Of a DNA stretch of 64,000 bases, positions 5,413 to 63,987 are shown one piece after another; position 1 is the stretch's first letter; the number at the start of each line of letters is the position of its first letter. Made by a program: the position numbers and the translations under genes. The DNA is taken from NCBI RefSeq assembly GCF_027744825.2, contig NC_071338.1:30671501-30735500 (forward strand), written 5' to 3'. Source of the stretch: Synchiropus splendidus (lineage: Eukaryota; Chordata; Actinopteri; Syngnathiformes; Callionymidae). Under the pieces are notes generated by a model, which saw only the letters and a program-made list of their open reading frames with translations, ran no database searches and was not told the origin of the DNA.

Positions 5413-5608
5413 TAGTGATGGGCTTCTGAGGCTTCATGAAACATTGTCCTAATTTTAAGAGGCCGCTAGATGGCAATCTCTGCTATAAAACCTTTGCATT
5501 TAAACCACCATTTCTATGAAACCTCACCTTATTTTCACCCAAAAAGCGCTGACTATTTAGCTCTGAAAATGAGGACACTGTTTCATGAAGCCTCATCAGC
5601 CCATCACA
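5413..5608. mobile_element. hAT-like MITE, near full length
   Basis: This is a short non-coding palindromic element. It starts TAGTGATGGGC and GAGGCTTCATGAAAC and ends TGTTTCATGAAGCCTCATC and GCCCATCAC, so the arms are inverted repeats. Its ends match the TAGTGATGGG terminus of the hAT copy at 33412-34123. The left arm holds a CTCF-like stretch (CCGCTAGATGGCAA, near 5463). Target duplications are not clean. Confidence 0.8.
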
Positions 5609-5616
5609 AGTCTTCA

Positions 5617-5708
5617 GGGAACAGTGTTGTCATTTTGAGAGTCCACTAGGTGGCGATCTCTGCTATAACATTTGGATTTCAAAAACCATCTTTTTGAAAT
5701 TCAGTCTT
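5617..5708. mobile_element. hAT-like MITE, partial
   Basis: A half copy follows the preceding MITE directly. It carries the AACAGTGTTGTCATTTT block and CCACTAGGTGGCGA (5643-5656), a 13/14 match to the CTCF core, but has no right terminus. Confidence 0.65.
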
Positions 5709-5730
5709 GAAGGTGAAAATAGTTTCAGAC

Positions 5731-7321
5731 CACTATTTGTATTGACATATGACTAGAATAAATCAAAGTAATCCCCAGTGAGCTCGAGCCTCTCTTAAGG
5801 AGTGAGGAGTCCCTGAACGCATCACCAAAGAATCACATGTCCTGGCTGGGTACCAGCCTTTCTAATACACTCCCTTGGATGTTAGTTGTTTTCAGCTCCA
5901 GTCAAACTTACTCTTTGGGAATTCAAGTTTACTATTTCTCTTTGTGTTGGTACTTTCAATTGCGTGCTTGAGTTCAGCTACGTCACATGTGGTGCATTGC
6001 TCCCAGCAAGTCACCTGAGTTCAGTGGTCCAGAGGAGACGTAGAAGTTCCAGGTAACTTTTGGAGCTTTCAAAACACTATGCCAGAGCTAATCCACCTGC
6101 TGTGCGAGCGTTTGTGTGCAGGTTATCGTGAATATAACTGTCTCAGACACGGCTTTAGGAGGGATTCTTACGTTTAATGCTGTTAACCACCGCGTGAGTC
6201 CTAATCCTCACCAACTGCACATGAGGGAGTTTGAGAGTAGGTGCGAAATGGAGGAGCAGATGGTGCTCGAACCACGGCGACGGCATGCAAAACAAATACG
6301 CTGTGAAAAGACTGTTGGATATAGCTGACTGCAAACCTACTGGCTTCATACTGGTACGTATTTGTTCCAATACCGATTCTCTCTGGGTGCACTTCCTGGA
6401 TCAGGTCTCGGAATGAAAACAAAAGAGCGCTAGAAGGGACCAGAGAGCACTCACTGTAGTGAATCCCACCAGGCCCTGGTGTAGTTGTCCCTGCAAACTT
6501 GTGAGTTCTGGTTATGAGATTTGAGGCCATGCAGTGCATGACATGAGTACGAGTCCTATGATGACAAACAACCCCATTATTCCATGAAGAGTTTAGTTTA
6601 CAAGCAAGACCCTGGAACGAATCTCGCCTGGGTTCACCGATCATTATGCGAACTCTGAAGCTGGTGTCTTCTCAGTACGGTTCCTGTGTTATTTCCTCAG
6701 AAAAAGTATGTCTTCATTCATTTCTCCTTGTCTGAATCAAATGAAAACAACGACAAAATGAACTGGGTTCTAGGTTTACAAACAGTTTCTGAACCATATA
6801 AGTTCATAAACTGAAGTCCGACTGAACACATTCTACTTCTACTCCAGAAACATGAAGAAAGATATTCCACTTTCGATGTCGATGTGTCTGAAATGTGCCG
6901 CCTAATGGGGAAAGGCAGGAACAGCATTTTAAAGGCCAAATGGCAACAATATTGTAGCGTGTCTGTGCAGTTTGGTCAAAGGATCATCACAGACACTACC
7001 GTCACGTTCTTCTCTTCGTTTTGCTTGAGAGTTGGTTGACACAGTTTTGAGTTTACGAAAGTGTGGTGCTAAATGGCCTTGACCGAAAATGAAAAACACC
7101 AACATCTGCAATGTCATGAAAAAGTTCGTCCTCACACTGGCAGTGACTGCGGTTGGATTAAAAGGCCTGACGCAAACAATTCAAGGTCCATAGCTTCTCC
7201 ATGCGAAGGTTCAAACAGTACACATCCAGATGTAACTGTCGATGTTATTTCTATATCCTTTATTTGTCCCATAGTGGGGAAGTTTTATCATAAATTCTTA
7301 TCCGATATTAAGATGTGCATC

Positions 7322-7324
<3 letters not shown>
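5731..7324. other. No recognisable gene
   Basis: There are several overlapping open frames of 60-147 codons on both strands near 6116-6644. None has recognisable motifs, and the opposite-strand frames are equally long, which argues for chance. No shared repeat was seen. Confidence 0.5.

Positions 7325-7393
<69 letters not shown>
7325..7393. repeat. (TA)n microsatellite
   Basis: This is an uninterrupted alternating TA dinucleotide tract of about 69 bp. It yields artificial Ile-Tyr repeat proteins in two frames. Confidence 0.98.
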
Positions 7394-7396
<3 letters not shown>

Positions 7397-7974
7397 CAGG
7401 ATCCTTCTTTAACCATTTCATTAAAGTAAAAATACTCCAGTCGCCTATAGAACTATTTGCACTCTGCCGGTTCTTAATATAGACAAGGACATTTGCAATG
7501 ATTTCATAAAGCGTTGTAGCCTTCAGAGGGAGCAGGGAAACACCTATCAAAAGGAAAAATGTAAAACGTTCTTAATGAAGTCTCCTGGATCCCAGATGTG
7601 CACCTCCTGTATCATAATCTCATTAACCACCTTCCTTCCTCTGATGCTCGGTGGTGATCACAGTGACGTCTGTGCCGTGATTAAAAGTCCTTTTCACGCT
7701 GTAAAAGACAAGTTCCTCCCGTCACGTAACGCCTTTGATTTCACACGGCTTTGGAAACGTGACTGTATATGTACAACTCCGTCTTGCTCTCGATATTAAA
7801 TCCAAACAAAGCCATCTATTTCCCCGTCCGCTGTCTGACCAACAGACTTCCCTGGACACACGCGGCCGAGCCTGACTCATCGATGCACGAACAAGACGGC
7901 CACCAAATAAGGAGGGAGAGGCTTGTGTGGCTGGAGATTGAGGCTTCAGTCAGTCACCTCCGACCAGCGCTGGT

Positions 7975-8180
7975 CAGTAATTTGTTTCCATCCTGTTAAT
8001 TAAAACGCAGCCTGAACGCTGTCGAGCTTCTGACTCAGTGAAAAGCTAATTGGCTTGTTAGAAAAACACGCCATTTAGGAAATATTTCGCCGAATTTGTT
8101 ATCCTTCATTAGCAAGAGCGGCAATGTTGTATATGGTAATGTGTTTTTATTATAAAAACAGAGCGACGCAGGATGAATTT
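7975..8180. other. Candidate conserved non-coding element
   Basis: This is a single-copy stretch with several TTAATTAA/CTAATTGG-type homeodomain-like cores, no open frame and no repeat homology within the window. The candidacy is compositional only, as I have no conservation data. Confidence 0.2.
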
Positions 8181-8359
8181 TTAAAATGCATCATTCCTTT
8201 CTGTCTCCAGCAAAAGTCACAACTCTTTTTGTTACTGTTTGTTTCGCTTCAGTTCCCCCAGCGATGGCTACATGAATTCAAGAACTTGTAGAACTTTGTT
8301 TTGTTTTCGGCCGAATTTCATTCTAAATATTTGCCAGTGGAGAGCTACATTTCACTTCT

Positions 8360-8551
8360 GATGAGCTGATGAGGCTTCATGAAACAGTGTCCCCATTTTC
8401 CGAGCTCCGAATGTTGCGCTCCTGGTTCAAAATGATGTGATGTTTCACTGAAATGCTTGGTCAAATCCAAAGATTTTAGATCAGTGAGTGCCCTCAAGTG
8501 GGCTCTGAAAGTGAGGACAGTGTTTCATGAAGCCTCATCTGCACATCACTA
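8360..8551. mobile_element. hAT-like MITE, full length but for the left TAGT
   Basis: The left arm GATGAGCTGATGAGGCTTCA and the right arm TTCATGAAGCCTCATCT followed by CATCACTA bracket about 190 bp of non-coding sequence. The flanks TCACTTCT (8352-8359) and CCACTTCT (8552-8559) agree at 7 of 8 positions, the 8-bp duplication expected of hAT elements. Confidence 0.8.
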
Positions 8552-8559
8552 CCACTTCT

Positions 8560-10246
8560 GTGCTATTTTTGTCTTTTTGATCTTTTTCTATTTGAAAATC
8601 AGGGTATAGTTCATAGCAAAATATTTATAAATCCTTAGCTTTCCTCCGCATGTATTCAACCACTGATCAAATGAAGCACTGACTCTGAGTCTCAGTAATC
8701 CCATCATAGCTGTAAGAATCATATAAAAAGGTCAAAGCCTTATTTAAACCCATGGAAATCTTGAAAAGAATCAGCTGTTCTGTCTAAGACGTAACACCTC
8801 TGACACTCCATCCGTCCGTCCGCCCGCCGCAGAAATCTAATTTGTCGCCAGTATCTTGTCAAGATAACAAGCTTGGAGCTGTCAGCGGCTTCTGCAGCCT
8901 GAGAGCTCTCACTCTGTAACCCTCGCAGGACATCAGTGTTTCAGGACTCTTCTTATTGATTGACAACTACCAAGCGTACGGGAAAGAGAGAGAGAGGGAG
9001 AGGGAGCTGATGCACAGAAAAAGACTGAGTTACACTCTTTGTTAAGAGAGAGCGAACATTCACATTTACTAAAGTAAATATCAGCTATTCCAGGCTACGA
9101 TAATCATCAAACGCCAGTGCTTCTGGCCTCTGGTGCTCATCTCTGGAAGAGAAATGTCAAAGAAATCCGAGTGCTCGCGGGGCATGTAGCGGCATCTGTC
9201 TATAATTGGATGGCAGAGCAACGTCTTGGCTGGTTCTGGAGAAATTTGGGGTTGACAAGAGGTCACTGCGAAGAACTTGCTGCTGGACAGCCGCAGCGTA
9301 ACTGATGTCTTCTTCAGATTCCTGCTAAATTGGGGCTCAGCTGTGAGGGGCGCGGGCACAATGTCATCAGATCATTCCTCATCTGTCCAGGCGGCTTCTA
9401 TTTACAGCGATGTGCCACGCAAACATTTAACAGCATCAATATGTTTTCCTTGTTCCCATTCATCCACCACCTGCTGACTGGCTACAACCCTCCAGAAAAC
9501 TCTGTCCAGGCTGTCGTGGGTCTGCCCTCCTGTTTGGCCGGTTCAACTTCCGTCATCTCCTGGATGGGAGATCTCCTCACCCCCCCATCAACCGGCCTCT
9601 GTCACAATCACTTCTTGTCTGCTTCCGTCCTCCCACAATCGTCACGTGATTATTCCTGGACTTCTTTTCTCAATTTGTTCTCTGGATTTTGTCCCGAGAC
9701 TCTAGAGCAGATTTAAGCCGACAAATTTCACGATATCGCTTGGGAACATCTCTGCATCTCCGGCCCAGAGATAAATTGGATAAAGACCTTATGTCCTTTA
9801 AAGACCCGCTATCTCACCAGCCTCCCACAGATAAGCAGTTGGAGCTCAGCAGCAACTAAATAGTGTTTTTGTCCGGGTTTCGGTGCTCAATCTCCAAAGT
9901 GCTGACTGCTCCCCATCTGAGTTAAAGTAATGGTCGGCTGGATGTGACTTCACAAACATCCTTCACTCAGATCAATCTTTGTATCTAACTAGAGGCAACA
10001 AGAGCAAAATCATATTTCCGCGAGACGTCAAAACTCTTTCAGGGTTGTGAGACGAATTACATCTTAAGTTGAATACAGCACAGAAACATCATCTAGAGTG
10101 TGGACCAAACAATGTGATGAATCGTTGGGGGCACTAGTTTGTATTGTAATGATATTGAAACTATCTTCATGTGAATTGTAAGACATTGGTTACTTGCTCA
10201 ATTGAGAAGGTGCACTGACACTCTCCTGACTGATGAATACATAACT
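8560..10246. other. No recognisable gene
   Basis: This region contains a short GAGAGG purine run near 8985-9005 and unremarkable open frames on both strands at 9081-9716. I recognise nothing coding and no shared repeat. Confidence 0.5.
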
Positions 10247-10535
10247 ATCCATCCATCCTCATTGGCTATTTTGACGTGTTCAGCAGCTTCAAAAGGCCAC
10301 GCCAAAAGCCTTTCTCGGGGGCCACATCCACCAGCCACCAGCTCTGACTGAGGGATCCCGAGATGCTCGCAAGCCAGTGAAGCGATATATTCCCTCCACC
10401 TGGTCCTGGGTCGACCCCTAGGTCTCCACCCAGCTGTTTGTGCCTAAAACACCTCCATAGGGAGGTGTCCATGGGACTCATCCTAGTGAGATGCCCGCAC
10501 CTCCTCATCTGGCTCCTCTGAACGCGGAGAAGCAG
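10247..10535 (-). pseudogene. Old LINE ORF2 C-terminal relic
   Basis: The minus-strand frame near 10508-10266 and its neighbours retain a degraded version of the family seen at 2559 and 12617. It keeps the block order of a GHLTRM-like motif, a region with AGGTCTCCACCC on the plus strand, and the AACACCTCC.TAGGGAGG block. It has many substitutions and frame breaks, so it is an older copy. No target duplication was found. Confidence 0.55.
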
Positions 10536-11391
10536 CAGATAAGAAATTCACTTAAAAACATCAACAGAGAATGTGAAGGGAAAATAGCAGTGCACTTATT
10601 CAGAAGGACCCGAAGGTCTTTCCTCTGGTGTTCCTCTCAACAAAGTAAAGCGAGATCACAATGATGCATTATTGAGTTTCATTAAAATAAAGAGCAGACT
10701 TTCATTAAGGGAAGTGGCAGCGCTGCTTTCTGCTCCAGAAAAACGCACACTTGCTTTTGTTCTCCTGAAAAATAGGTGTTTTTATTTTATTAAAAACTCA
10801 ATAACTTTTGTTTTGTGGCTAGACAAGTGGTGTGAGGAAACAATTGTTCTCAGGGAAAGGTCAACCAGGAGAGAAGATTCATGAAGTTCTGTAGTGCAAG
10901 CCAAACCTGGGGCTCCCCCTAGGTGGACCTCCTCAGAGATCTCCATCACGGTGGAATCTAGTCACTGCGCATTGTGGCAATGGATGGAAGTCAGGAGCTC
11001 TGAGGACTAGTCTCAACTGGGTGAAGAACACCTCTGAAAAATGTCCTGGTCAGCAGATGCTTCCATCCGACGTGTTGTCGCAAAGTCAATGGGGATCTCA
11101 GACAAGTATTTTGTGGCCAAGACAGGACAGTGCCACAGATTTTAGGGCAAAACGCTACTCTCAGAAAAGGAACAGTAATTACTGTTACTGCCTGATAGGT
11201 ACTCTAGGAACCACAGTCTTCATTGAAAGCAATGAAAGGATTTTGGCAGGTTGAAGACCAGACTCTGCAAACAGGATGAGCTGTCTGATGGTAGCCAGGT
11301 GGAGTTACAGTAGTACACACGACAGGATCCTGGTCCAGACCTTGGGCTGCTGTCTGGGTGGTCATTTACTGCCCATGTCATTTAGGTTAGT

Positions 11392-11638
11392 ATTGCTGTT
11401 CTCCAATATATCCACCAGGGGGAGCAGCCCAGAGTTTATGACAACAACAAAGTCCAAAACCAACACGTATTGATGTAGCTCTTGCACAAAAGAGGAAAAC
11501 AGAGGCAGCGTTGTCGGAGGCAGTGGTCAGTGACGCGATTAAATATATCGCCACTAGGGGACTTCGAATTTCCACTATTGTTGTGTCTTCTTTGTGTCTC
11601 ATTCGAGCTACGTATCGGGTAGTAACAGCTCAATACCG
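11392..11638. repeat. Dispersed repeat family H, copy 1
   Basis: This copy is about 250 bp and clearly homologous to 22421-22672. Shared blocks include CCAATATATCCACC, GGGGGAGCAGCCCAGAG, TATGACAACAACAAA, CAAAACCAACA and GAGCTACGTATC. It begins GCTGTT and ends AACAGC, a short terminal inversion. It may be a non-autonomous DNA transposon. The second copy holds a short peptide frame (MSTVEEAL) somewhat like fish PIF/Harbinger N-termini, but this assignment is weak. Confidence 0.6.
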
Positions 11639-12604
11639 TACTTCTTCTTCTCTACAGAATAGAGTCCTAAGAAACGTGGGGGATATTAAACAATCTACTA
11701 TGCAACCTGAATCGTAATATTATATTTGTAAAATTGAATGAATCTATGAGTGGGAAAAGTGGATTTAATTCAATCATAAAGCTGAGAGCTCCTTCTCACC
11801 GGGACAGGAAACAAGTGAAATAGCTTAGATTTGCGTTACAGTGCATGTAAAGGCTCATGCTGTTATAAGTCACGGAGTTGAGTGCAATTCTCGGTGATGG
11901 TGCTGTACGTGCGTGAACAGCTTGTTCAGTGATTACCCACCGTGAAGAGGTGACAGGTTTACATGTAAATAAATGAGGATTGTCGCCAAACTCAACCTGC
12001 AAATTCATTCTATCGCGGCCTCTTTTCCTCCAGATCTCTGGCACCAAGAGTGATAAAACCAAGATTGGCTTTGCTCCCTGCAAATCCGAGTAACACCAGG
12101 CTGCCTCAGTTTGGGAGATTTTCTAATAACAATGGTCTTACTGGGCCTTATTGAGAGCACAAAAGGTCTTCACCACACATGAAAAGCAACCTCCGCCTCA
12201 TCCCAGTTATTTGTAACCCCCCGCTGCCCCTTCTGCCATGATAATTATTGACCGCTGTCGCAGACGGCCAGCGGATGGGTCAGTAAAGAGCGGCTGAAGA
12301 GATTAAGTAGAAATGAAAAAGGGCTTGACGGGACAGTTCAGGAGGCGGTCTGTTTTCCAGGTGATATTTCTGGCTCATGTTGTCAATAAAAGTTCCCTGT
12401 GATGAAATAATAGTGATGAGTTTCTTCCAGAATTCGAATCTGTTCCTTGAATATTTGGTGTAAAATCACGGTTCAATTTATTATTGTGAGGAATATACCA
12501 TGTGCATCAAAGGAAAACCATTTTCCTTCCAAGCCGAGCTTGCTAGCTTCCGAAACAGAGTCTTTTTTATGGTTGGACTATTGTCGGTCTAACTCAGCAG
12601 TGAT

Positions 12605-12616
12605 CTTCATGAAACA
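12605..12616. repeat. Target-site duplication of the LINE inside the MITE
   Basis: CTTCATGAAACA at 12605-12616 is repeated at 13154-13165. The duplicated sequence is itself part of the MITE terminal repeat, which proves that the LINE landed in a pre-existing MITE. Confidence 0.85.
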
Positions 12617-13153
12617 CCTTCTTCACCTTCACCTTCTTCTGCCGCTTCTCCGGGGTCGGGTCGCGGAGGCAGCATTCGGAGCAGGGAAGCCTAAACTTCC
12701 CGATCTGCACAAACCTCCTCCAGCTCTTCCCGGGGGATCCCGAGGCGTTCCCAGGCCAGACCGGAGACATCATCTCTCCAGCGAGTCCTAGGTCTTCCCC
12801 GGGGTCTCCTCCCGGTAGGACATGCCCAGAACACCTCCCCAGGGAGGCGTCCAGGGGGCATCCGGATCAGATGCCCGAGCCACCTCAGCTGGTTCCTCTC
12901 CATGTGGAGGAGCAGCGGCTCCACCCCGAGCTCCTCCCGGATGACCGAACTCCTCACCCTATCTCTAAGGGTGCGCCCAGCCACCCTGCGGAGGAAACTC
13001 ATCTCAGCCGCTTGTATCTGCGATCTCATCCTTTCGGTCACTACCCAAAGCTCGTGACCATAGGTGAGGGTGGGAACGTAGATCGATCGGTAAATCGAGA
13101 GCTTCGTCTTGTGACTCATCTCTCTCTTCACCACGACGGTCCGATACAGAGAG
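12617..13153 (-). mobile_element. 5'-truncated LINE inserted in a MITE
   Basis: This belongs to the same family as 2559-3335 and is also in minus orientation, with the AAGGTGAAGAAGG-type 3' tail at the left. The 12-bp duplications on both sides are perfect. Identity to the 2559 copy is high by eye over the shared part. Confidence 0.85.
12691..13134 (-). pseudogene. LINE ORF2 C-terminal fragment
   Basis: This 147-codon frame encodes the C-terminus downstream of the reverse-transcriptase core. It shows YGHELWVVTERMRSQ, the QAAEMSFLRRVAG block, RWLGHLIRMPPGRLPGEVF, GRRPRGRPRTRWRDDV and LAWERLGIPREELEEVC. It stops at CADREV because a Trp codon (TGG in the 2559 copy) reads TAG. Otherwise it is the best-preserved copy in the window and useful as the family reference. 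It is 5' truncated, with no start of its own and no catalytic domain. Confidence 0.8.
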
Positions 13154-13250
13154 CTTCATGAAACAGTGTCCTAATTTTCAGAGCTCAGTAGGTGGCACTC
13201 CCTAAAAATGTTGTGAGGTTTCAGTGAAAAGATTTTACAGCAGACAGCGC

Positions 13251-14888
13251 CCTCTCTGGCAATAGAATACCGTAAAAAATGTCAATTTTTTTTCAGCAAT
13301 TTAATCACGACATCTAGCAATGGGTACTGAATTTGATACCTTTTGTTGGTACTGACCGAATTCCGTCAGCATTACAGAGTACCGACTCATGTAAAATTCA
13401 AAAGTGTCACTTGCCAGTTGGCCATATTTGATGCCTTAGGAATGAGAATATGGTGACAAGCCATTGTGTTAGCCTTCACTCTGGTCCTGATTCTACACTG
13501 GAATCCACATTTTTTCCCTCTGGAACTGACATCCCATCAAACACATTCAGCTTTGCCATGAGTTGGCTTTTTTTCCAGAGTTGATCCGACTTTCTGGGCA
13601 TCGTACAGCGACCCCAGAAACTGGATTTGCTTTGTGTTTTTTGATTCTAATTTGAATGTCAAGAAAGGCAAATAACACGTAAGCCTGGAAAGCCGTGGTT
13701 TGGAAATTCCACCCGTGTACTGTAGAACACCCAAATTCCACAGCACCTTTGGCGGCCACAGTTCTTGGAAGACTGAATCGCAAACTCAGGTGACCGTTGC
13801 CACCCCCCTCCCTCTGGAACTCTCTTCCAGAATGCTCAATGTGACCGAGCCAACCGGATCCATAAAAATGGGCCATAAAAACTCACCTTGGTTTACGGCT
13901 TTCAATTTTTACATCTGTTTATTTTTGGATATCTGGCTTTTGTCGCGCAAATTTGTGTCGAGGATGAGTCAGAGCTGCTCTGATTCATCCCCTCTCTCGA
14001 CGACCGAGAGGCTCGCCGGGGGCGTTGGACTGAAATACATGGAGAAACAAAAAGGAAGTGGAGTAAATATCGGACTGGGGCCCACAGATGCTGAGCTACA
14101 GACGGATATACATTATTAAAATGAAAATAGAACCCACTTAAAACAACACACAACTTTTCAGCCGCGCTCCATCCGGCAGAATTTTTCGCCGATGACTAAT
14201 TCATGTGTTTGTGTTCACTCAGTGGTAGACTGTGTATAAATGCATCTGTGTTCCACAAATAGCCATATTAAGTTATTTACTGCATCACATTATTCAGTTC
14301 TGTGTTTGTATTGTACAGCTGTTCGTTGTGGTCTAAATGCTAGCGCAGATTCCATGGCAAGCTCAGGGAGTTTCCCTCCGCGAGTCTGTCACCCCCCACT
14401 CAGTTATCAGAGCCGACACTTGGCAGCCCACTTTCCCGCGCAGAGAATCTGCCCACTCCCAGGCAGCGGGGCCAACGTCAGACTCCATCATTCCCACGTT
14501 CACGATGACCTTGGCATCAGCATGTGCGGCATTAACTGACGCATGGCTTTAAGAGCAAGAGGGAGAAAATATAACTGTAAATCAATTCAAGTTTCAACAT
14601 CGGCCCCGTGTGACAAGCATTACAAAAACAAAGTCACCTTCAATCCGCGGAGAGGGTTCCATTACTTCCTTAAGAGGCTATTGACATTCTCTTTGCTTCT
14701 CGACATGCTTGCTGGCATTGCAAGTTTTGAATTGGCCTTTACAGAACTCCAAGGCTGAAATATGTTTTTCATCGACCGGTTTTGATAGGCAGTCATTGGA
14801 TATCTCTTGAGGACTGGGATGGGTTTCTATTGTTTATTGCTCCAGTTCTGTCTCATCTAGAAGGTCAAAGGTCCGAAATGAATGAAGT
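13251..14888. other. No recognisable gene
   Basis: The open frames at 13537-14153 overlap on both strands and lack recognisable motifs. I see no shared repeat. Confidence 0.5.
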
Positions 14889-14889
14889 T

Positions 14890-15167: not shown

Positions 15168-15404
15168 TTTTATTGGAATAGAACATCTGAAGGGGGACTC
15201 AAGATTATCAGACTGTTCTGATTTTGCTCTGTCCCAACCAGGATAGTCAACACCCGCTTATTGTAACTCTTATCCAATGAGAGGATCCATACGTCCAGGT
15301 GTGTTAAGAGTGAATTCATCCTCGGGGCAGAAAATTCTACATGTTAACCATGTTCAATATTTGCGAAGAAAAATCCTCATCTGTGGGCAGAGCCGATTGC
15401 TCCC

Positions 15405-22420: not shown

Positions 22421-22672
22421 TGTTCACCAATATATCCACCGGGGGGAGCAGCCCAGAGTAAAACCTTTATGACAACAACAAACGTCAAAACCAACATGTC
22501 GACTGTGGAAGAAGCACTGATCATGTACCTCATGCACAAAAAGAAGAAACAGAGTTAGCGTCGAGGCGGTGGTCGTGACTGGAATAAATCACCAATGGAG
22601 GACGGAGAATTTCCACCATTCTCATGTCTTCTTCGTGTCTCATTAGAGCTACGTATCAGGTAGTAACAGCAA
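22421..22672. repeat. Dispersed repeat family H, copy 2
   Basis: Homologous to 11392-11638 over its length. It keeps an ATG frame MSTVEEALIMYLMHKKKKQS followed by a stop (from 22497), which copy 1 has lost. An N-terminal transposase remnant is possible, but the peptide is too short to name. Confidence 0.6.
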
Positions 22673-23942
22673 CACTTCCCCCCAATGGTTTCAGGTGGTA
22701 CTGCTCCACTTGGTCTGTATCTGTGAGCTGTGTGGAAACAGAAGACCAGATCCAGATCCATCCATAAGTTGAGGGTAAGAGCACCCTATGCTTGAGTCGT
22801 AGGTGCCCGTTTCCACATTTGTGAATCACCATCAATAGTATTTATTAAGTCAAAATTCATGAGAATTTTTAGTGACATATGATTGACAAGTCTGAGGTTT
22901 AGTAGGAGGAAAGTAAACTGGAAAAAATGGAACATAAAAATATTGCATAATATTCATTTCAAAACACAGGAAAACCAGTGTTAAAAGAAAAGCTTACGTT
23001 GTTTTTGCCTCAATAAATGATTAGATTCAAGGAAAGTTTATGCTTTCAAACACTAAAAATGATCATTAAATACAGTAGGTAATAGTATATAAATGGCAAC
23101 AATCTTCACTAAATAAATTGGACAAATAAATGAGTAAATAGGTGAAAAGAAACAGTAAACTTCCAGTAAAATGTAAGATGAAAAAACACTTTTTTAACAG
23201 AACAAAACCATTCATTCATACTTATATTAAATGCATATCTGTGACACATTTGATCATTTAAAAACTAGAGACGGACGGACGGATGGAACGATTGTGTACA
23301 TTTACATTTTAGTTGAAGTAGCAGCTGAACGAAAAAAAACAAACAAACGAAACATGTTGAGTGAGTTAATTTAAACACTGTAGCAGAGATCGCTTCTTCA
23401 GTAGCAGTGTTTGTTATTAAACCCCTAATAGACTTGTGATGAATGCTGCAGATTAACTTGAATATCGAGTCATCGGGCGCCGCGCGTCTCCACTCCTAAT
23501 TGGACGGGTCTTAATTTCTCTGACAAAGAGCCGGCGATAATGCTGCGAGGCGTCACACGGGTGAGTGAGCCACAGGATAATGGATCCAGTTCTACCAGCG
23601 AACACAAAAAGCCCGGCCGAGCGGCGTCCTGCGATAAAAGCCGGAGCCGAGCTGAAAGGGAACACGGATCGGACGCATTAGCTCCGTTTCACACACGGAA
23701 TTCAATGTGAAACCACATTCAGTCGAACAAAGCATCTGGGGCAGTACATTAGTTTGGATGCCACGAGCGAGTCGCCAAAACATTATGACCACCACTACTG
23801 CGGCTTGTGTGTGCGGGGTTTCAGTTTGAATTTGATAATGAAGCGTGTGGATGTATGACAAAATGACTTTGTTACACTATATTACAGCAATTTATGTTGG
23901 GAGCTTTATGGAACATGGGCTTTAGGTTACTGTCTGCTCATC
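22673..23942. other. No recognisable gene
   Basis: AT-rich sequence with a short GGAC tetranucleotide run near 23272-23286. No shared repeat or convincing frame. Confidence 0.5.
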
Positions 23943-24040
23943 TGTAGAGCTAAGTAGGTGGCGCTCTTGGTTGAAAAATGATGTGAGGATGTTCAAATCC
24001 AAAGAAGACAGTGCCATCTAGTGGTTTGGAGTTCTCAGAA
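23943..24040. mobile_element. hAT-like MITE, internal fragment
   Basis: The fragment retains AAGTAGGTGGCGCTCTTGG, AAATGATGTGAGG and GTGCCATCTAGTGG. The last (24011-24024) is a 14/14 reverse-orientation match to the CTCF core. Both termini are lost. Confidence 0.65.
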
Positions 24041-32259: not shown

Positions 32260-32453
32260 ATTGATTGGTTGATGAGGTTTCATGAAACAGTGTCCTCATT
32301 TTCAGGGGCCACCAATGGCACTGTCTGCTGCAAAATGTTTAGACTTGAACTAATTCCATGAAATGTTGCATCATTTCTAAACCAAGAGAAAATGAGGACA
32401 CTGTTTCATCAACCCTGCGATACCGTTTCATGACGCCTCATCTACTCATCACT
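32260..32453. mobile_element. hAT-like MITE, near full length
   Basis: GATGAGGTTTCATGAAACAG and TGTCCTCATTTTCAGGGGCC at the left mirror GAAAATGAGGACACTGTTTC and CGCCTCATCTACTCATCACT at the right. A short internal duplication of the TTTCATGA arm lies near 32425. Confidence 0.78.
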
Positions 32454-36865: not shown

Positions 36866-36965
36866 TACTGATGGGCTGATGAGGCTTCATGAAACAGTGT
36901 GCTCATTTTAAGAGCCCACAAGATGGCACTCTCTGCTATGAATTCTTATTATTTGAAGAAGCATT
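36866..36965. mobile_element. hAT-like MITE, left half
   Basis: TACTGATGGGCTGATGAGGC starts the unit, and CCACAAGATGGCAC (36926-36939), a 13/14 CTCF-core match, follows. There is no right arm. Confidence 0.7.
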
Positions 36966-37009
36966 TCAATTTAACCTCCCTTTGTGTTCTGAAAATGACA
37001 TTTTTACTT

Positions 37010-39741: not shown

Positions 39742-39894
39742 AGTGACTGTGCTGAGGAAGCTCCATGAACAGTCTTCTCATTTTCAGAGCTCAGTCGGTG
39801 GTGCTCTTGTTGTAAAAATTATGTGCGGTTTCATTGAAATAGTGGGCTCTGGAAATGAGGCAACTGTTTCATGAAGCCCCATCAGCCCATCATT
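39742..39894. mobile_element. hAT-like MITE, decayed
   Basis: TGAGGAAGCTCCATGAACAG at the left and CTGTTTCATGAAGCCCCATC with AGCCCATCAT at the right. The left arm contains TCAGTCGGTGGTGC. Confidence 0.68.
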
Positions 39895-40000: not shown

Positions 40001-40036
40001 TATTGATGGGATGATGAGGCTTCATGAAACAGTGCC
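40001..40036. mobile_element. hAT-like MITE terminus only
   Basis: TATTGATGGGATGATGAGGC followed by TTCATGAAACAGTG. The rest of the element is absent. Confidence 0.6.
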
Positions 40037-40290
40037 TGATATCTGGATATGACAGCCACTATGAGCCCCCAGCACAAACACTGTAATAACAAACCAGTTC
40101 AAATATGAGCGTAATTGTGGGTGCAACATGGGCCCAATAAAGACAAGTCGTGCATAATATGCTATCAGAGTCATTTGGTCATGTTGTATTTGAGACCACC
40201 TAATATGAGACCCAGACCTGCGCATGAAGAGACCAAGACTTTGGTGAGCCCACAAACAATTGGAGACCAGTTATTTCCAGTATTTCTTTT

Positions 40291-52574: not shown

Positions 52575-52742
52575 AGTGATAGATAAATGAGGCTTCATGA
52601 AACAGTGTCCTCATTTTCAGAGCTCAGTCGGAGGCGCTGTCGGTTTCGAAATGATGTGAGGTTTCATTTGAAATGACTGTTCTAATCGAAAGATTTTAGA
52701 GCAGAGAGTGCCATCTAGTGTCCTGAAAATGAGGACACTTGG
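52575..52742. mobile_element. hAT-like MITE
   Basis: GAGGCTTCATGAAACAGTGT and CCTCATTTTCAGAGCTCAG at the left mirror CTGAAAATGAGGACAC at the right. GTGCCATCTAGTG (52709-52721) is a partial reverse CTCF match. The right terminus is missing after GGACACTTGG. Confidence 0.75.
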
Positions 52743-53126: not shown

Positions 53127-53308
53127 AGTGATGGGCTGATGAGGCTTCGTGAAACAGTGTCATCTTCAGCGCTCAGGAGGTGGCACTCTATGTTAAAAAA
53201 TGATTTGAGATTGAATTGAAATGGTTGTTCAAATCTACAGATTTTAGATCAGAGAGCGCCATCTAGTGGCCACTGAGGATGAGGACACTGTCTCATGAAG
53301 CCTCATCT
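53127..53308. mobile_element. hAT-like MITE, near full length
   Basis: AGTGATGGGCTGATGAGGCT at the left, TCTCATGAAGCCTCATCT at the right. GCGCCATCTAGTGG at 53256-53269 is a 14/14 reverse-orientation CTCF-core match. Confidence 0.8.
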
Positions 53309-54205: not shown

Positions 54206-54237
<32 letters not shown>

Positions 54238-54387: not shown

Positions 54388-54530
54388 CTCCATGAAACAG
54401 TGGCCTAATCCTCAGAGGCCATTAGATGCTCTTGGTTTAGAAATGATGCGAGGTTTCATTGAATTAGTTGTTCAAGTCCATTTTACAGCAGAGAACCAGG
54501 ACACTGGTTCATGAAGCCTCATTAACCATT
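54388..54530. mobile_element. hAT-like MITE, decayed
   Basis: CATGAAACAGTGGCCTAATC at the left and GGACACTGGTTCATGAAGCC at the right. The motif arms are eroded. Confidence 0.68.
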
Positions 54531-54565
54531 CAATGCTGTGTCATGAAACATCAGCTACCTATCAT

Positions 54566-54680
54566 GATGAGGCTTCATGAAACAGTGTCCACTTATTCAG
54601 TGCCCACTCTGTGGCACTCACTGCTCTAAAACACAGCCATTTCAGTGAAACCTCAGATCATTCTTAACCCAAAACATTCC
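54566..54680. mobile_element. hAT-like MITE, left half
   Basis: ATGAGGCTTCATGAAACAGT, TGTCCACTTATTCAGTGCCC, then AACCTCAGATCATTCTTAAC. No right terminus. Confidence 0.65.
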
Positions 54681-54738
54681 ATTTTTATCTCCTCATGTGT
54701 TTTCTATTTTGTCTTTTGCTTCAGTGCCAGAGCTCTGA

Positions 54739-55212
54739 CTTTTCCTCAGACCATACCTGACCAACTTCTGCAGTGTTATGAGACTCGGAGGGAGATGGTA
54801 CCCTGTATCTAGCCCGGTATATAGTTTTTATGTTAGAAAACAGCATTATCCCTGTGGAAGATGTCAGCTCTCTGGATCTGAGTCAGCTGACCATCTCATG
54901 GAGTGCAAGGAGTCAAATAAGAAACAAACCAATGATCATTCCCTTGACAAGGTCTCAGGGGTGGTGGAGCCAATCCCAGCTACCTGGGGTATCTTCAAGT
55001 CAGAATCCTTCTGCATCTTCAAGGTAACTGGAAACCAGAGGTCCCATGAAGATCGAAAATGTGCTTATATAGTGGGAAGAAATCAGAGTGCTAGAATGAA
55101 ACGATGGTGGGGAGATTGTACAAATGTCACACAGAAAGTTGCTCTAGTTGGTTGTGAGCCTTATGAGCTCTACTGTACATGCAATGCCTCACCAGTTGAT
55201 GACTCTTCATGA
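54739..55212 (+). CDS. Unidentified ORF, truncated by a MITE
   Basis: The frame is open from just after an in-frame stop at 54736-54738; the first ATG is 54778 (144 codons). I do not recognise the product. It is Cys- and Trp-rich, with three N-glycosylation sequons (NQSA, NVTQ, NASP) in the C-terminal half and blocks such as PCGRC, MKRWWGDC and CEPYELYCTC, reminiscent of an extracellular or glycoprotein domain. No signal peptide or membrane segment is visible. A pyrimidine tract ending CTTTTGCTTCAG lies just upstream (to 54724), but the in-frame stop follows within a few codons. The last five codons and the stop come from the MITE beginning at 55195, so the original frame was cut. It may be an old exon, a retroelement fragment or chance. 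Confidence 0.3.
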   Translation, partial: LFLRPYLTNFCSVMRLGGRWYPVSSPVYSFYVRKQHYPCGRCQLSGSESADHLMECKESNKKQTNDHSLDKVSGVVEPIPATWGIFKSESFCIFKVTGNQRSHEDRKCAYIVGRNQSARMKRWWGDCTNVTQKVALVGCEPYELYCTCNASPVDDSS

Positions 55213-55361
55213 AACAGTGTCCTCATTTTCAGAGCCCACTAGATGGCACCCTCTGCTTTGAAATCCTTGGATCTGATCAACCATTTTAATGAAACCTCAC
55301 ATCATTTTTATACCAGGAGCGCCACCTGCAGCGCCCTAAAAATGAGAACAGCCCATCACTA
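55195..55361. mobile_element. hAT-like MITE, near full length
   Basis: CTTCATGAAACAGTGTCCTC at the left and AGCCCATCACTA at the right. CCACTAGATGGCAC at 55236-55249 is a 14/14 forward CTCF-core match. GAGCGCCACCTGCAG follows in the right arm. The flanking 8-mers CCTCACCA and CTTTACCA agree at 6 of 8. Confidence 0.75.
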
Positions 55362-56820
55362 CTTTACCATCGCTCACCAAGCCAGACGGATATATACACA
55401 AACTGTTGCGTCTTCATCACCGACTGCTGTTCCAAACATCATTTTAATGAACGCAACACTCTTTCCACGTCGTTATTTTTTATGTCCTAATTACAGCGAG
55501 ATGAAATTAACAAAGTGCGTAATGATCACTTGCCGTAATTGCCATTTTATATAAAAAAAATAGCTATCGCTACGCTTGAAAACTGCACGTGTTTACTACC
55601 TGGCTGCAACTTTAACTGAGTGAAGAGGGAGGAATTTGCGCAGGTGTGTAAATAAAGACTTTTTTAAGAGCCATAAGAAGCACAGCCAGTGTGACGGCGA
55701 CGATGACAGGAGGGGAACTAAAAGTCTGCACGTGTCAGGATAAACACCCGGGAATCGCTGTGATGAGGATGATGATGATGATGCTCCCTCTTCTGATGAA
55801 AATAGTTCTAAACAGCAGCAGAACGAGCTCGCCACCTGCGTGTCTGCGAGCGTGGCATAAATGAGTTTCCATCTCCGCTCTGACGGGCCTGGATGGATGG
55901 GGCGCGCGGCGTCGGGATAAAGAGGCAGATCCATTTGCGCCTGGTAAAAGAGAGGAGCACACGGGTGGCCAATCTTTTCGGCTACTTTCATCCTCCCATT
56001 CTTCCCACTTTTCCGTCCTGCGCCGCCTCTTGAGCCCACTCACTCGCCGACCTTGCTATTATCAATGAAAGACTCCTTGATACGAATCTAGAGTACAGGC
56101 AGGATCCAACTGGAGTTCATAAGTAGTGATTTTAGAGCAGATAGCGCCACCTTCTGAGCTCTGAAATTGAGGGGCCGCGAGGCTATGTTTCATTCCATTC
56201 CTGGGTTGATGACAGTCAGCAGCAAGGCTTCCTGAAATGACATGAAGTGCTCGCGCGTAGTTGGACAGTGACAAGAGTTCAACTCTGTCTGATGGAGTCT
56301 GGAGTGTTGACAGAGCCCAGAGAGGATTGAGTTCACCGAGTGTGTTTGGTTAACACAAGTGTGTTTTCAGCAGTCAGTGGACTCTGTTAGTTTGTTCACG
56401 GAGACCGGTCCGCACAGTGATGTAAAATCAATGAGACAGGGAACAATGTTTGGACGGGGGTCTGTTTCCACTCTGCTCAAGAGGAGAAGCCGCTGTTGAC
56501 ACTTATGGATGAATATCTACTGATTAGTTAGAAGCCTTCATGTCCCATCCACCGTTGATCCACAGCAAGTGAGGAGTCAGACTTTGAGTTGTAGGTTGAA
56601 ATCCAGGGAGTCGCTTGCCTCTCACCCAAGCAGTAAGAGGGGTCTGGCTACAGACCTCTTCTCTAAGGACCCTCGTTCTCTTCTGTCAGGCCCCTACTGG
56701 CAAACCTCTCCACTCAGGTCCCTTCATCACGGGAAATGACTCAATAGCTGCACTTCGATCAGAAACGTTTCTCCATATTGGACAAAGAGAACTGTAAGTG
56801 ACTGACTACTCCGTTCTTAA
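55362..56820. other. Non-coding with a small MITE fragment
   Basis: A MITE fragment (TTTTAGAGCAGATAGCGCCA) lies at 56128-56195. A minus-strand frame of 147 codons (56039-55596) is unrecognised. No other repeat. Confidence 0.4.
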
Positions 56821-57443: not shown

Positions 57444-58469
57444 GAAATTAGAATAACCGTGTTCATGTGGTACTGTTATAATAGATCGTATGTGACTCAT
57501 GTGCCACGTTGTTAGAGTTTCGTGTTTACGAGAGCGTATACTTGTGTTGGCAGGGAACAATGGCGTTAGCAGAACGCTAGCTTCTTTATTATGTCGTGCT
57601 GACAATAAACAACTGTCTTAAACTACACAAACTTTCGACTGATGTTGAGTGTCTTGTTACCAAGTTAGACAGCATTGTGTCTGGGCATTTATCTGAGTAG
57701 AGAAAAGTTTGTTAGGTAGAGTTGGCTAGAGTTTGCTAACAATCTAACAAACGTTTTAAGAGTGAGCTTTGCAGTGCAATTTCGAAGTCAGGTTTTCAAT
57801 TAATGCGCAGTCTACATTTCGCTTTTCATTCAGACATGATTTTATTGTTTCTCCAAACAGATGCATCCATCATTCTATCATTTCGAGCGGCTCACAATTT
57901 GCAGCAGAACTCTGTCGTACATGCTGCAAGCTGCATCCTCCGGATGTAATCCAAGTCCAGAGTCACCTGAAAATTAACCTCAAAAATGCAATTTCCTTTG
58001 AAGGTGAAGGTGAGCGCGTATTTGTATATATGCAATTTAACTATTCGTATGTGTGTGGAACTATGTTGTCTTCCAGGAGAGCCAAACGCAGTTTTGCTTT
58101 TCAGTCTATGAGCCAGTTTCGAGTGAATATAGAACACAACACATCTGACAACACGTGTCATTGTTGTTGTGCCAGACAGTCATGAATCGGGACTTGTTTA
58201 AAACACAGACGGAGAGTTTTACCAGATCAGAACAGCAGGAGAACCAACAGTTGTGTGATTAAGTTCGTGTGAGTAAGATAGAATTAAGTACTGTACATCT
58301 TCCACATGTATTTTTCATGTATATTCTATAAAAGTTGCCTGATGGAGGTCTGAGGACGATGGGGCCTGAGAGACGAGGTAGATGTCTGCGGGATTGGCAG
58401 CTGAGAGGCGAGGTCTGCAGCCAGACTCTTATGTAAGCAGCGGGGATTGAGTCTTTCTGACTTTGTGTG
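57444..58469. other. No recognisable gene
   Basis: A plus-strand frame of 138 codons (57769-58185) has no recognisable motif and is matched by an opposite-strand frame. No shared repeat. Confidence 0.45.
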
Positions 58470-58600
58470 TACCTGGTCTATCCTCACTTGTGGGGACCAA
58501 TTCTCCAAAACTCCTCCATGTGAAGACCTTGTGTCTTCATGGAGACCATTTGGTAAAATATTAAAACTTCAAAATAACTAGGTCATTATTATAATGTTTT
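58470..58600. repeat. TGGGGAC teleost-type repeat, partial
   Basis: CACTTGTGGGGACCAATTCT and CATGGAGACCATTTGGTAAA, in the order seen at 28.05 kb. Confidence 0.65.
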
Positions 58601-60817
58601 TTTTTATGTTTTATTTTACTTATGTACTGCATGAGATGTATAAGTGTCTCACACATTCATGAGGGAGATTGGAAAATATAAAATCAATGTTTATGCCACC
58701 CCATTAAAATCAGAATTTTGGGACTTACAAAGACATTTTTGGATTCACTCATTCAGTTTTTTGTTTCTTTTCATTCACTCAATAAGTTTTTTATTTATTT
58801 ATTAGTTTTTATTTTTTATTATTTTATTATTATTTATATTTTTTTTCCCCCAACAAAAATATTCAAATAACAAATCCATATAATATTGAACGTTTCCAAA
58901 AAAATCAAAATCAAGACATACTTTACAAAATTCACACCTTTGGATTTGAGACTTCATAGGCTTCATTGTTTCCCTATTTATATCAAAAATAATTTTTTTG
59001 TTTTGCGTATCGGATTAAAACTAAATTATTCTACACATCTACTCGACAATTTATTTCCATTCATTGTGATCTGATCTCAGTAAATGCCTCTTGTAACACG
59101 GACAGTCTGGTTGTTGCTACACTCATTTCTACAATAACACGAGTCAAACTCCTAGCTGTCGATTCTTGCGGGACGTCTCCATGATAACCAGTGCTTCCCT
59201 TTACCCCAACATCTAAGGGTCACGACCTCACTCTGTGCTCTACACACCCACAGCACTTCCCAGAGCGGCGTACAACAGCCGCTAGCCCGCAAGCTAATTA
59301 ATCCAACCTGCCGCCGAGCGCTTCATCAGCGGCGGTCAGCCGCCGCGGCAGCAGGGTCAGTGCTCCTCAAACAGGCTGCTGAAGCGTGAAGAAAGCAGAC
59401 TCATCTGCTGCCTCATGCGTTGCTCACACACACGAACACAGAGCCAGGCAGACCGAACCTTCAGCGATGACTCAGGTAGTTGTAGAAATGAAACACTGTC
59501 TTATTTTCACCCGTCATACAAATTGTCGAACATGTCATTACCCTGAGTCGCCTGGCGGCCAGTCGAAGGCATTTACCGACTATAGAAGAAGAACACTGAC
59601 GGTTAAATATCTGAAATATTCTGATAATTAGCAAGCGTCGGAGCGGAGGGAAGCTGTTGTTGTCATTTCACCCCTGAAGGGATTGATTTGTCTTGTTTGA
59701 CACAGAACACATGAACATATTTTCGCTCTCTGTTTTGCTGTGGGCGATACACAAAGATTCATTTTTAGAAAGCAGGAGCGAGTTCAGGGTCTCCACCACA
59801 TGTAAAGTGGCGTGAAAAAGATCTCTTTTTAAAGATGAACTCTCACCCGACCAAAGGTAAATAGAGTGGAAACAGATAACGCACAACACATAGTGGAGGT
59901 GGACTCATTTTTTCCTGTTTTTTTTTTTTTTTTTTTCACTGTGTTATTTGTGGAAAAATCCTGAAAGAAACATCACAATGACTGAAGTCTTTTACAGAAC
60001 TCAAGTCGCGCATTCTGGACGTTTGAAGAGACGGACCACGTGAGGATGGCTGCAGATTGGAGGCAGATTTACTTCTCATGATTAAAAACTATTGAACGGT
60101 CCCCTCTGATTATCTATTACTTCTTAAATGGCTGCGTTCCATTTCCATTTTAATTTTTTTTTTTTTACTCTGCCAGAGTTTCAAAAAATCCTGTTGATTT
60201 TCAGGCTCATTTGAATCCACACAGGGATGCTGCTGGGAAAACTGCTCCGGGTCCCTTTCTTCCGGCTGGTGCCAATGATGTCACAGACAGTTGTAATCGG
60301 ATTGAAAAAACAAAATTGTAAATGAATGCTGATCTCACTGAAAATATTATTACATATTATATTATATAAAATATATAATATAATAACAGCGATCAGTGGT
60401 TCCATTAAATGCATTTACACGTCCTGTGTCCAGACTTTCAGACTCTATGACAAATGGTGATGATCTGAAGCTCCATGCCTCCACACAAGTCATGGCTGCA
60501 GCACCGGGGGGCTGTGGGCTATTGTCAAATGAAACACCTGGTCCCAACTCAGGTCAGATGTTCCTGGGAAACTGGACTCTTTAAATGTGTCAAAGGTCTC
60601 ATGCTATTGGCTGAACTGTTGACGTGTGCAGATGCTGACAGACCAGATTTGGTGAGGTTGGATGGTCTGGACGTTCATTCCAAAGGTGAAGCGCAGAAGA
60701 CTTTCCTGCATGTTTCCATCTGAATATTTTGACATTTTGAGAGAATTCAGTGAAAATGCGCAAAAAAGAAAACGCCACTTCATGCCTGTTTCCATTTATT
60801 ATTATGGGATTATTGAG
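58601..60817. other. A/T-rich tracts, no recognisable gene
   Basis: Long T-rich runs occur at 58780-58850, 59918-59937 and 60153-60166, and a TATAATA-rich run at 60345-60380. No shared repeat or recognised frame. Confidence 0.5.
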
Positions 60818-61340
60818 AGGAGTGTCATGTCCGCACTTTGTTCATTTTTGTATTCTTCCTTGACTTGTCTCGTGCTTTTATTTTCTGATCGCCGGTTGTT
60901 CTCATCGCTTCACGGGCGACACAGCGTTCATTTCATCATCAAGTCTCCCAAGGATATGCACCCGTCAACGCCAGCTCTCTTCGCCAGATGGTTGCTTCGC
61001 ACTACGTGACGGTAAACTCTTCCAAGACTTCCAAGCTGTCGTTCCATTCCCTGACTTTTCTAAATGCTGTGCGCGCTCAAATTCCTCGCTCGAATATTCA
61101 TCGCTCCGTTTGTGTTTCTCCCCTTTGCTATTCAGCCCACGTGTGAGCAGTTTTCCAGTCACACTTTTCATTCCTCTTTGACGTAGTTATTTCCTCGTGT
61201 GTGTGTGTTTTTCCTTCACCGACCGCTTTACATATATTGAGCCTCGTGATCTTAACAAACTAGGACAATCGTCTCCCGTGCCTACTGTCGACCAGCACTT
61301 CTTGCACTTGGGTCCCTCCTTGAGAAACTATGACAAGGAG
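60818..61340 (+). mobile_element. Solo LTR with 5-bp target duplication
   Basis: The element 60823-61335 (513 bp) starts TGTCAT and ends ATGACA, a perfect 6-bp terminal inversion with TG..CA ends. It is flanked by AGGAG on both sides (60818-60822 and 61336-61340). It shares GTGCTTTTATTTTCTGAT and GCACTTGGGTCCCTCC with the other LTR-like relics. No internal retrotransposon sequence remains, consistent with LTR-LTR recombination. Confidence 0.85.
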
Positions 61341-63189
61341 AGTGCGCCCTGAGATGTTGTCATCTTTGCTGTTTCCCATCCAGAATAGCATTAGGCTACA
61401 CTCACATGGAGCCGCACATTTTCCTATCCGATAACTTTCATTGACAGTTTCCGAAAAACACTCAAACAAAGCCGTTTCTGCCGGATCCACTGTTCACAGA
61501 CCATGTGGTTCAGCTTTTACTACAAGTCAGAAACATGAGTCAGAGAGAGTGGACGGGGATGAGGGATTTTGGCAGCTTTGTGGTCACCTGTTCCTGCTCC
61601 ATCGACACCACAGGGAGTGATCAGCTTGAATTTAGATGCCATAGGTTTGAGAAAATAAACATTTGCTCCACATATCTAACTCGTGTTTGTGACTGGCTTC
61701 TCTGAAGAGTGTGAGCTGCTAGCTTGTCCGACGCTTGTTCGTTTCCACAGTCTCTGCTGCTTATGATGACAGAGTTGCGTAAGATTTTGTGTTGGTATCG
61801 CCAATAACCTGAACAGTTGCAGAATGTACACTCCTTTGTTGTGCGACAGTATTGTTTCAGGGGGACAACTGAGGCAGACGGGGTGTGATAACATCGTGTA
61901 TAGCAAAATTATGATCACAATTTCAAAATCATTGCAAATAAAATAGTAAATACATAGTTGTATTGGGTTGGAGTGACATAAAGAAAGTGTTAGCCCAAGA
62001 GTTGACCCCTGAGGAACCCCATGTGAGATCCTTCATCCGTTATTCATGCCAGTCCAATTTAGATTCATGCGGTTGGTTCGAATCAGTTTACCAGCGAGTC
62101 ACAGGACAATATGAACTTGTTGTCAGCGTGGGAATCTGAAACCTGTAATGAGACCGGTGGTTTTGGTGCAGCAGCTACACAAGTTTTAAACCAACAAACG
62201 TGCATTTCTTTTCTGTTGTTCTGTTGAGGAGCTGAGAGCGCGTTACTTGGCATTCAGTGGAGTGGATCTGCGATGACAGGTTGCACACACGCAGGCTGAC
62301 AAGGCATTATACAGCTCTGGTGCTCGGCCCGCGATGTGAAACCATTAGGCAGGATTTCTGCCTCCTGCTGAATGCAGGTGGGATTCAGGACCTACTTATT
62401 ACAGCCCAGATGTGGCTGTAATCCATCACTGTCTCCGCAGCCCCATCGCACTCGGGAGTATTGTCTGGAGCGCTGCCCCCTGGTGTGCGTGTCCGAGATT
62501 GTTCTTGTAAGAGTCTATATCTGATCCCTATTTGTGCGCGCTTCATTACCCTCCTGCTCCGTCTCAGCACGCGAAGAGTCTATGCAATATTAATTAACAT
62601 CATTATGACCATCTCCCGAGTGCGCCGCATATTAATGACGAGTCTTCCGCACCTTTGGTCCTCCTTTTTTTTTTGAAGTCATGAATCATTAATGTGTGTG
62701 TTGTGAGCGTCAGCGAATCGGTCCTGACTGGGCCAATTTCAGCGCTGCAGATGGTGCACTCGTTATTTGCGCTTCTCATTATTTACTCATTAAATGTGTC
62801 ACTCTTGTCTGCTTAATGGTTTGTTTGGGTTCTTTTTTTTTTTTTTTTTTAACTGTTAAAGTGGCTCTGTAAGTGTCGCAAACGCTGACTCAGCAAAGTG
62901 CAGTATAAACATTGGCTTCAGTGAAAAGTGTCCAAGAAGTGTTTTGTATTTGGATGAGAAAAGGGGATTTTATTTGATCCCAGTTCATTTGACAAGGGTC
63001 CAGGTTTTCATATTCCCTTCCTGAAACATAGGTTTTTTTAAACCCTGCTTAATAAACAGATTTAGTAACACAGCTCAACAAAACGCAGGTAAATACTTTA
63101 CGAACTAACTAAACACTTCATGGTCCATCTCCCAGGTGGTTAGGCTACAAGATCTACATTACTTTCAGGGCTGCTAGGACAGGGATTGG
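61341..63189. other. Non-coding; 62300-62830 a candidate conserved element with CTCF-like site
   Basis: 62300-62830 is single-copy and combines TATTAATTAACATCATTATG, GCATATTAATGACGAG and AATCATTAATG cores with GC blocks. GCGCTGCCCCCTGGTG at 62470-62485 is a reverse-orientation CTCF-core match (13/14). A 20-base T run lies at about 62831-62850. Confidence 0.35.
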
Positions 63190-63319
63190 TACTGATGGCC
63201 TATGAGGCTTCATGAAACAGCATCAATTTCAATGAAATTTCACATGATTTTCAATCCATGAGCGCCACCTACTGAGCTCCAAGGGCAGTGTTTCATAACA
63301 CCTCATGATCCCATCCCTA
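63190..63319. mobile_element. hAT-like MITE, shortened
   Basis: TACTGATGGCCTATGAGGCT at the left, TTTCATAACACCTCATG and CCCATCCCTA at the right. The interior is reduced to about 130 bp, and GCGCCACCTACTG remains. Confidence 0.75.
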
Positions 63320-63423
63320 GCTCCAGGCCCCTCCTCCAATTGTGGAAGAGCATTGTGACCCTTGGAATTGCTCTTGGTCGAACCTTTTTCTCTCAACCCC
63401 AGTGGTGGCACAATACCCCCAGC

Positions 63424-63595
63424 TAGTGATGAGCTGATGAGGTTTCATGAAACAGTGTCCTCATTTTCAGAGCTTGGTAGGTGGCGCACTAAGTATAAAA
63501 GTGATTATTAAAATAATTGTTTACATGCAAATAGAGAGCAGAGCTGCCCTCTGGTAGACAAATGAGGTCAGTGTTTCATGAAGCTTCACCACTGA
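63424..63595. mobile_element. hAT-like MITE, near full length
   Basis: TAGTGATGAGCTGATGAGGT at the left, CAGTGTTTCATGAAGCTTCA at the right, GGTAGGTGGCGCA in the left arm. Confidence 0.78.
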
Positions 63596-63834
63596 AGCAC
63601 ATCGCGAGCTACTTTGGAAGAAAGAGCAAAATCACGGATGCTGGCTGCCAAAAGTAAAGAATGTCTAGGAGCTTTCTAAGTTTACTGATGCCTTGCTAGT
63701 GAGTGGTTGTACTTGAATCGTTGGGTCCGACCGAGGATACTACGGAGGGATGATGTTTGATACCGTTGACCGGCAGCAACCCCGGCAGCAACCCCTGCTT
63801 CTTGTTTTGGGTAGGGGTTCCCGCGCCGGTGAGG

Positions 63835-63987
63835 CAGTGATGTGCTCATGCGGCTTCATGGACCAGTGTCCTCATTCGGAGCTCAGTAGGTGGCGCTTGA
63901 AAATTAAAAGGCTTTCGAGCAGAGCGCACCATCTAGTGGCTTTTGAAATGAAGACACCGTTCCATGAAGCCTCATCATCCCATCATC
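63835..63987. mobile_element. hAT-like MITE, near full length
   Basis: AGTGATGTGCTCATGCGGCT at the left, TTCCATGAAGCCTCATCATC and CCCATCAT at the right. TCAGTAGGTGGCGC (63883-63896, forward) and GCACCATCTAGTGG (63926-63939, reverse) are opposed CTCF-like motifs. Confidence 0.78.

Follow-up and report, generated by a model that had tools for sequence, protein, structure and literature searches.

Can a short DNA transposon scatter candidate docking sites for the host architectural protein CTCF through a fish genome? The question is raised by a 64-kb window of Synchiropus splendidus (30671501–30735500 of contig NC_071338.1; "the window" is this whole stretch, within a 582.7-Mb genome of 96 contigs), in which an initial annotation had noticed copies of one palindromic miniature inverted-repeat transposable element (MITE) with opposed CTCF-like cores, and had proposed that the family may have seeded CTCF or insulator sites, as rodent B2 short interspersed elements (SINEs) did. 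Our preferred reading, to which we give slightly more credence than doubt, is that this is a hAT-type MITE of about 197 bp whose inverted arms may each have spread a CTCF-like core, that some copies of one of its two subfamilies, B, are probably bound, and that most copies drift.

Structure and class of the family

A family profile, built from the window and other DNA of the host genome and used to locate copies, matched 132 stretches across all genome DNA sampled, 99 of them long enough to be sorted into subfamilies: A, with 55 copies at 16.5% divergence, and B, with 44 copies at 9.4%. From its divergence we infer that A is ancestral to B. The rebuilt element, about 197 bp long, is palindromic and non-coding, starting with TAGTGATGGG and ending with CCCATCACTA. 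The two A arms agree at 59 of 62 positions, all mismatches falling within the core region, and the strand forms a foldback.

At the predicted boundary the flanks of 21 two-ended copies match over 8 bp (identity 0.49, z 5.1), a target-site duplication signal that is statistical, single duplications having decayed; the same diagonal would read as 6 bp if the boundary were moved one base out and as 10 bp if it were moved one base in. Duplications of 8 bp are a hallmark of hAT elements, and the termini presumably resemble Ac-type ends. On the basis of the duplication signal and the inverted termini, we class the family as a hAT-type MITE. Counted by exact pattern, which gives lower bounds for the genome, the terminal 20-mer occurs at least 2,776 times (reversed control, 0) and a left-arm 13-mer at least 1,492 times (reversed control, 4). 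The family looks regionally clustered, with no copy in 13 of 15 spaced 10-kb loci on the contigs C1–C3, against 19 stretches in the 64-kb window. Among 100 places listed for the left-arm 13-mer, most are on C1 before 12.1 Mb and few at 12.1–42 Mb. The terminal 19-mer led to no paper in PubMed Central text, and a literature search by title or opening of abstract found none on this MITE family.

CTCF-like cores in the two arms

A family consensus was built and scanned with a CTCF matrix, as the initial annotation had suggested, and a strong core was found in the B arms. On this matrix the B consensus arms score 21.8 and 23.1 of 27.7 bits (best p 2.7e-8 and 8.0e-9), and the A arms 14.2 and 17.8 bits (4.8e-6 and 5.6e-7). 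In the window, the three exact 14-base cores and the four one-mismatch cores reported earlier (those starting at 5643, 13185, 63883 and 63926) all reappeared in our motif scan, the exact core at 53256–53269 (-) being the best matrix site of the window at 24.2 bits. With up to one mismatch, the core matches 16 times in the window versus 0.53 expected from 100 dinucleotide-shuffled sequences, none of which gave more than 3, and 12 of these matches lie within family copies, the others being at 11412, 20092, 34024 and 62473. Of the 19 matrix sites of the window that score at p<1e-5, 13 lie within copies.

Beyond the window, exact matches to CCASYAGRKGGCRS number 12,593 genome-wide, and 6,572 of them (52%) are the family word CCACYAGATGGCRC; the reversed-pattern control, 88, is unfairly low because, on our own reading of the pattern, the reversed form always holds a CpG. 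In the window together with 25 ten-kb loci (314 kb; most of the copy-bearing loci among the 25 flank the window), copies span 7,668 bp and account for all 11 family words, 16 of 20 exact cores and, at p<1e-5, 38 of the 66 matrix sites. It is this spread of a sequence fitting the CTCF core that lends partial support to the proposed seeding of sites, and the B2 parallel holds for the spread only; preferential retention of the motif was not established, as set out below.

Each core lies about 50 bp inward from the arm tip, and the two are convergent because the arms are inverted. The convergence remarked on by the initial annotation is real, while its "unusual" character falls away, being the automatic outcome of inverted arms. 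In sampled copies the median core-to-core distance is 67 bp in A (28 copies) and 69 bp in B (25 copies), and convergent pairs of family words 50–80 bp apart occur at 598 places genome-wide, a number of places since the pair pattern equals its own reverse complement. The exact core is kept in 1/37 left and 10/33 right arms of A, and in 21/33 left and 17/32 right arms of B; among the copies with both arms readable, out of 92 sampled, both cores are exact in 10/24 of B and 0/23 of A. The CG of the A left core is intact in 25/40, in a genome with a CpG observed/expected ratio of 0.60, and CpG decay at the cores showed no clear pattern.

Three identical cores (CCACTAGATGGCAC) stand on one strand at C1:3608379, 3608549 and 3608715, about 168 bp apart, and may represent copies of the element in tandem. 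Beyond 3.0 Mb on C1 the cores seemed to run on the plus strand; this was rejected as an effect of which cores had been listed, two loci there carrying unlisted minus-strand cores.

On the preferred reading, the MITE is non-autonomous and was presumably mobilised in trans by the transposase of another element, and the CTCF-like segment would have been retained in replicating lineages as part of an arm needed for movement. Each new insertion would then deliver one inverted pair of CTCF-like sites, complete on arrival. Given the strength of the motif and the published hAT families of lamprey and zebrafish, CTCF probably binds some of the young B copies that retain two intact cores, and a convergent pair could stop cohesin loop extrusion arriving from either side. 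Afterwards most copies would drift, without selection on the motif that could be told apart from its surrounding arm.

Comparable elements exist in other vertebrates, human MER20, for one, being a hAT-Charlie element. It is named as a CTCF-bound DNA transposon (PMC7786948), and can be likened to the present MITE, by description only, as a DNA transposon. A close system is that of lamprey, where 489 of 586 copies of the hAT-Tip100 repeat 274 are at CTCF ChIP peaks and hAT-Charlie repeats also carry such peaks (PMC5504073): there, too, hAT DNA transposons spread a CTCF core through a fish-like vertebrate genome. In lamprey, however, occupancy was measured and the motifs are described as free of CpG, whereas the present MITE is known from its sequence and most of its consensus arms contain CpG. 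Zebrafish HATN9_DR, by its name a non-autonomous hAT element, supplies 647 footprint-inferred CTCF-bound sites (PMC9341505), and the likeness is again one of description. The rodent B2 SINE, cited for carrying the motif to more than 10,000 places in mouse (PMC3368268), shares with the MITE the repeat-driven spread to thousands of places; unlike it, B2 is a retroposon, binding is shown, and most bound copies, as described there, have the long M1+M2 motif.

That repeats can spread CTCF sites is, by these sources, already well known (PMC3368268), DNA transposons included (PMC7786948), and hAT elements supplying such sites have been published for lamprey and zebrafish. What is new, as far as literature searches show, is this family, its inverted core pair and its large share of one genome's exact cores. 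The spread of the MITE may have scattered thousands of candidate CTCF docking sites; if even some of its copies are bound, a single DNA transposon, and not a retroposon, would have supplied a large share of the CTCF cores of a vertebrate-like genome, and each intact copy would have added an inverted site pair. With many copies each of A (weak cores) and B (strong cores), the family also offers a natural dose series for the effect of CTCF sites on loops, one that bears on whether binding of a host architectural protein can benefit a transposon.

Decay of the core and competing explanations

According to the initial annotation, the motif remains discernible as the arms beside it decay, and motif columns should be compared with their neighbours. 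This comparison used 48 A and 44 B copies, after removal of seven that had been chosen by motif. The sample is non-random: nine of its loci adjoin the window, one was taken at a listed site, and 40 had been chosen by exact terminus, for which reason terminal columns were excluded. Half of all inner columns were held out, 60 times, and terminal-branch change was scored on the held-out columns. In A this change is 0.096 in the core, 0.112 in the arm and 0.145 in the spacer, and in B 0.053, 0.062 and 0.065. The core differs significantly from the spacer in A (p 0.0001; B, p 0.12) and from all other inner columns pooled in A (p 0.0023) and not in B (p 0.14), while no significant difference separates the core from the adjacent arm in either subfamily (p=0.09 in A, p=0.24 in B). 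The nearest-neighbour difference ratio on held-out columns is 0.77 in A and 0.96 in B.

These figures replace a first tree test, which had given near-equal terminal-branch values for core, arm and spacer (0.101, 0.100 and 0.119 in A; 0.060, 0.053 and 0.053 in B) and was biased to no difference because its tree was built on non-core columns; the first nearest-neighbour differences had the same selection bias and were redone. Rare-state counts showed no deficit in the core, a measure itself biased since columns with few changes hold more singletons. The held-out columns weaken the conclusion of no core effect for A. In A, the older subfamily, it is the entire arm that varies less, and an extra core effect beyond the arm is possible, if weak; the younger B, with the better motif, has no significant core effect. 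That core columns decay more slowly than their neighbours after insertion is not established.

A rival explanation is that the segment serves the arm alone, in transposase recognition or in its structure, with an incidental likeness to the CTCF core and copies that CTCF leaves unbound in chromatin. We think this unlikely. The CTCF-like segment does belong to a long inverted arm, whose columns in A are less variable than the spacer (0.112 vs 0.145, p 0.0017, held-out columns), and the arms, GC-rich and with CpG, may be methylated; the strength of the match (p 8.0e-9 in the right arm of B) and the two other hAT groups published as CTCF-bound speak against an incidental likeness. The A left arm also holds GTGGC, a sequence that had been put forward as the subterminal repeat in the hAT elements Hermes and hobo (PMC10368747), but the same paper re-assigns the Hermes site to AAGT, and the B word has ATGGC.

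Several points weigh against our preferred reading. The hAT class is based on the termini and the duplications; no transposase with such ends turned up, and none was looked for. The matrix (maximum 27.7 bits) was a reconstruction and not a database copy. The family's share of matrix sites is uneven, only 3 of the 16 sites at p<1e-5 in the 15 spaced loci lying inside copies. Transposable element copies are often methylated, and methylation of the core's CpG can block CTCF. Lastly, as given above, the A core has changed less than the pool of all other inner columns, and high-scoring arms exceed a simulation of score retention (A, 32/62 vs 9.8 expected; B, 56/64 vs 47.3), although the simulated expectation is probably too low because differences shared within a subfamily enter the divergence and the arms used were ungapped ones only.

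The two findings just given, on the A core and on the simulation, would suit a distinctly unlikely alternative, that the copies are host insulators in which host selection keeps the CTCF core while the remaining element decays. In A, identity in the non-CpG columns of the core is 0.867 against 0.811 in other inner columns (p 0.0018), transversions are rarer in the core (0.067 vs 0.111), the left and right cores rank 1 and 9 of 112 windows by conservation, and the held-out terminal-branch ratio is 0.73. The arm outside the core is, however, nearly as conserved (0.840 vs 0.867, p 0.10; spacer 0.791), and the held-out difference between core and arm reaches significance in neither subfamily. B, where the motif is better, lacks a significant core effect (0.927 vs 0.915, p 0.27; held-out p 0.14), and identity follows matrix information weakly in A (rho 0.33, p 0.052) and not in B (rho -0.16).

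Quite improbable, in our view, is that the transposon itself recruits host CTCF and that element-level rather than host-level selection improved both cores from A to B, a site in each arm helping the two ends to meet or keeping the element accessible. Of the eight consensus changes from A to B in the two 19-base sites, seven raise the matrix score, whereas of the 114 single changes that could occur there only 23 would do so; these eight should not be counted as independent events, sequence exchange between the arms being probable. Very doubtful is another zinc-finger factor as the real binder, such as YY1: its core, AAnATGGCGGC, overlaps AGATGGCGC of the B arms and has AGATGGCG in common with them, but the A left arm has GGTGG where ATGG would stand, and the full 14-base CTCF core is matched.

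Copies and other features of the window

The profile matches 19 stretches in the window (13 A, 2 B and 4 too short to assign), which correspond to about 18 elements because one of the short stretches, next to a B copy, is probably the tail of that copy; the number of copies first reported, about 18, was accurate.

Copies of the MITE family in the window, with the CTCF-like sites they contain
Feature	Position	Strand	Evidence
Copy, subfamily A, near full length	5414–5607	-	profile; matrix site 5460–5478 (+)
Partial copy, too short to assign	5611–5699	-	profile; one-mismatch core 5643–5656 (+)
Copy, subfamily A, near full length	8359–8550	+	profile; one-mismatch core 8488–8501 (-)
Copy, subfamily A, partial	13153–13255	+	profile; one-mismatch core 13185–13198 (+)
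Copy, subfamily A, partial	23920–24025	+	profile; exact core 24011–24024 (-)
Copy, subfamily B	32261–32416	-	profile
Short terminal stretch, probably outer end of adjoining B copy 32261–32416	32419–32453	+	profile
Copy, subfamily A, partial	36867–36984	-	profile; one-mismatch core 36916–36929 (+)
Copy, subfamily A	39748–39893	+	profile
Short fragment	40002–40042	-	profile
Copy, subfamily A	52575–52739	+	profile; one-mismatch core 52708–52721 (-)
Copy, subfamily A	53127–53308	+	profile; exact core 53256–53269 (-); weaker matrix site 53170–53188 (+), convergent
Copy, subfamily B	54388–54533	+	profile
Copy, subfamily A, partial	54565–54672	-	profile
Copy, subfamily A	55195–55350	-	profile; exact core 55236–55249 (+)
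Fragment	56114–56192	+	profile; matrix site 56142–56160 (-)
Copy, subfamily A	63193–63318	-	profile; one-mismatch core 63262–63275 (-)
Copy, subfamily A	63425–63597	+	profile; one-mismatch core 63544–63557 (-)
Copy, subfamily A	63836–63986	+	profile; one-mismatch cores 63883–63896 (+) and 63926–63939 (-), convergent

The longest open reading frame of the window (1560–2405, 282 codons) has no homologue at E 0.001, and it is among the 10 frames of the window that gave no match when searched against Pfam. A perfect (TA)n tract of 34.5 units occupies 7325–7393. Strong CTCF-like sites are also found outside the MITE family, at 11409–11427 and 22433–22451, with flanks (TATCCACC-GGGGGAGCAG) that are nearly letter-identical; to judge from these letters, the two perhaps belong to a second repeat family carrying a CTCF core.

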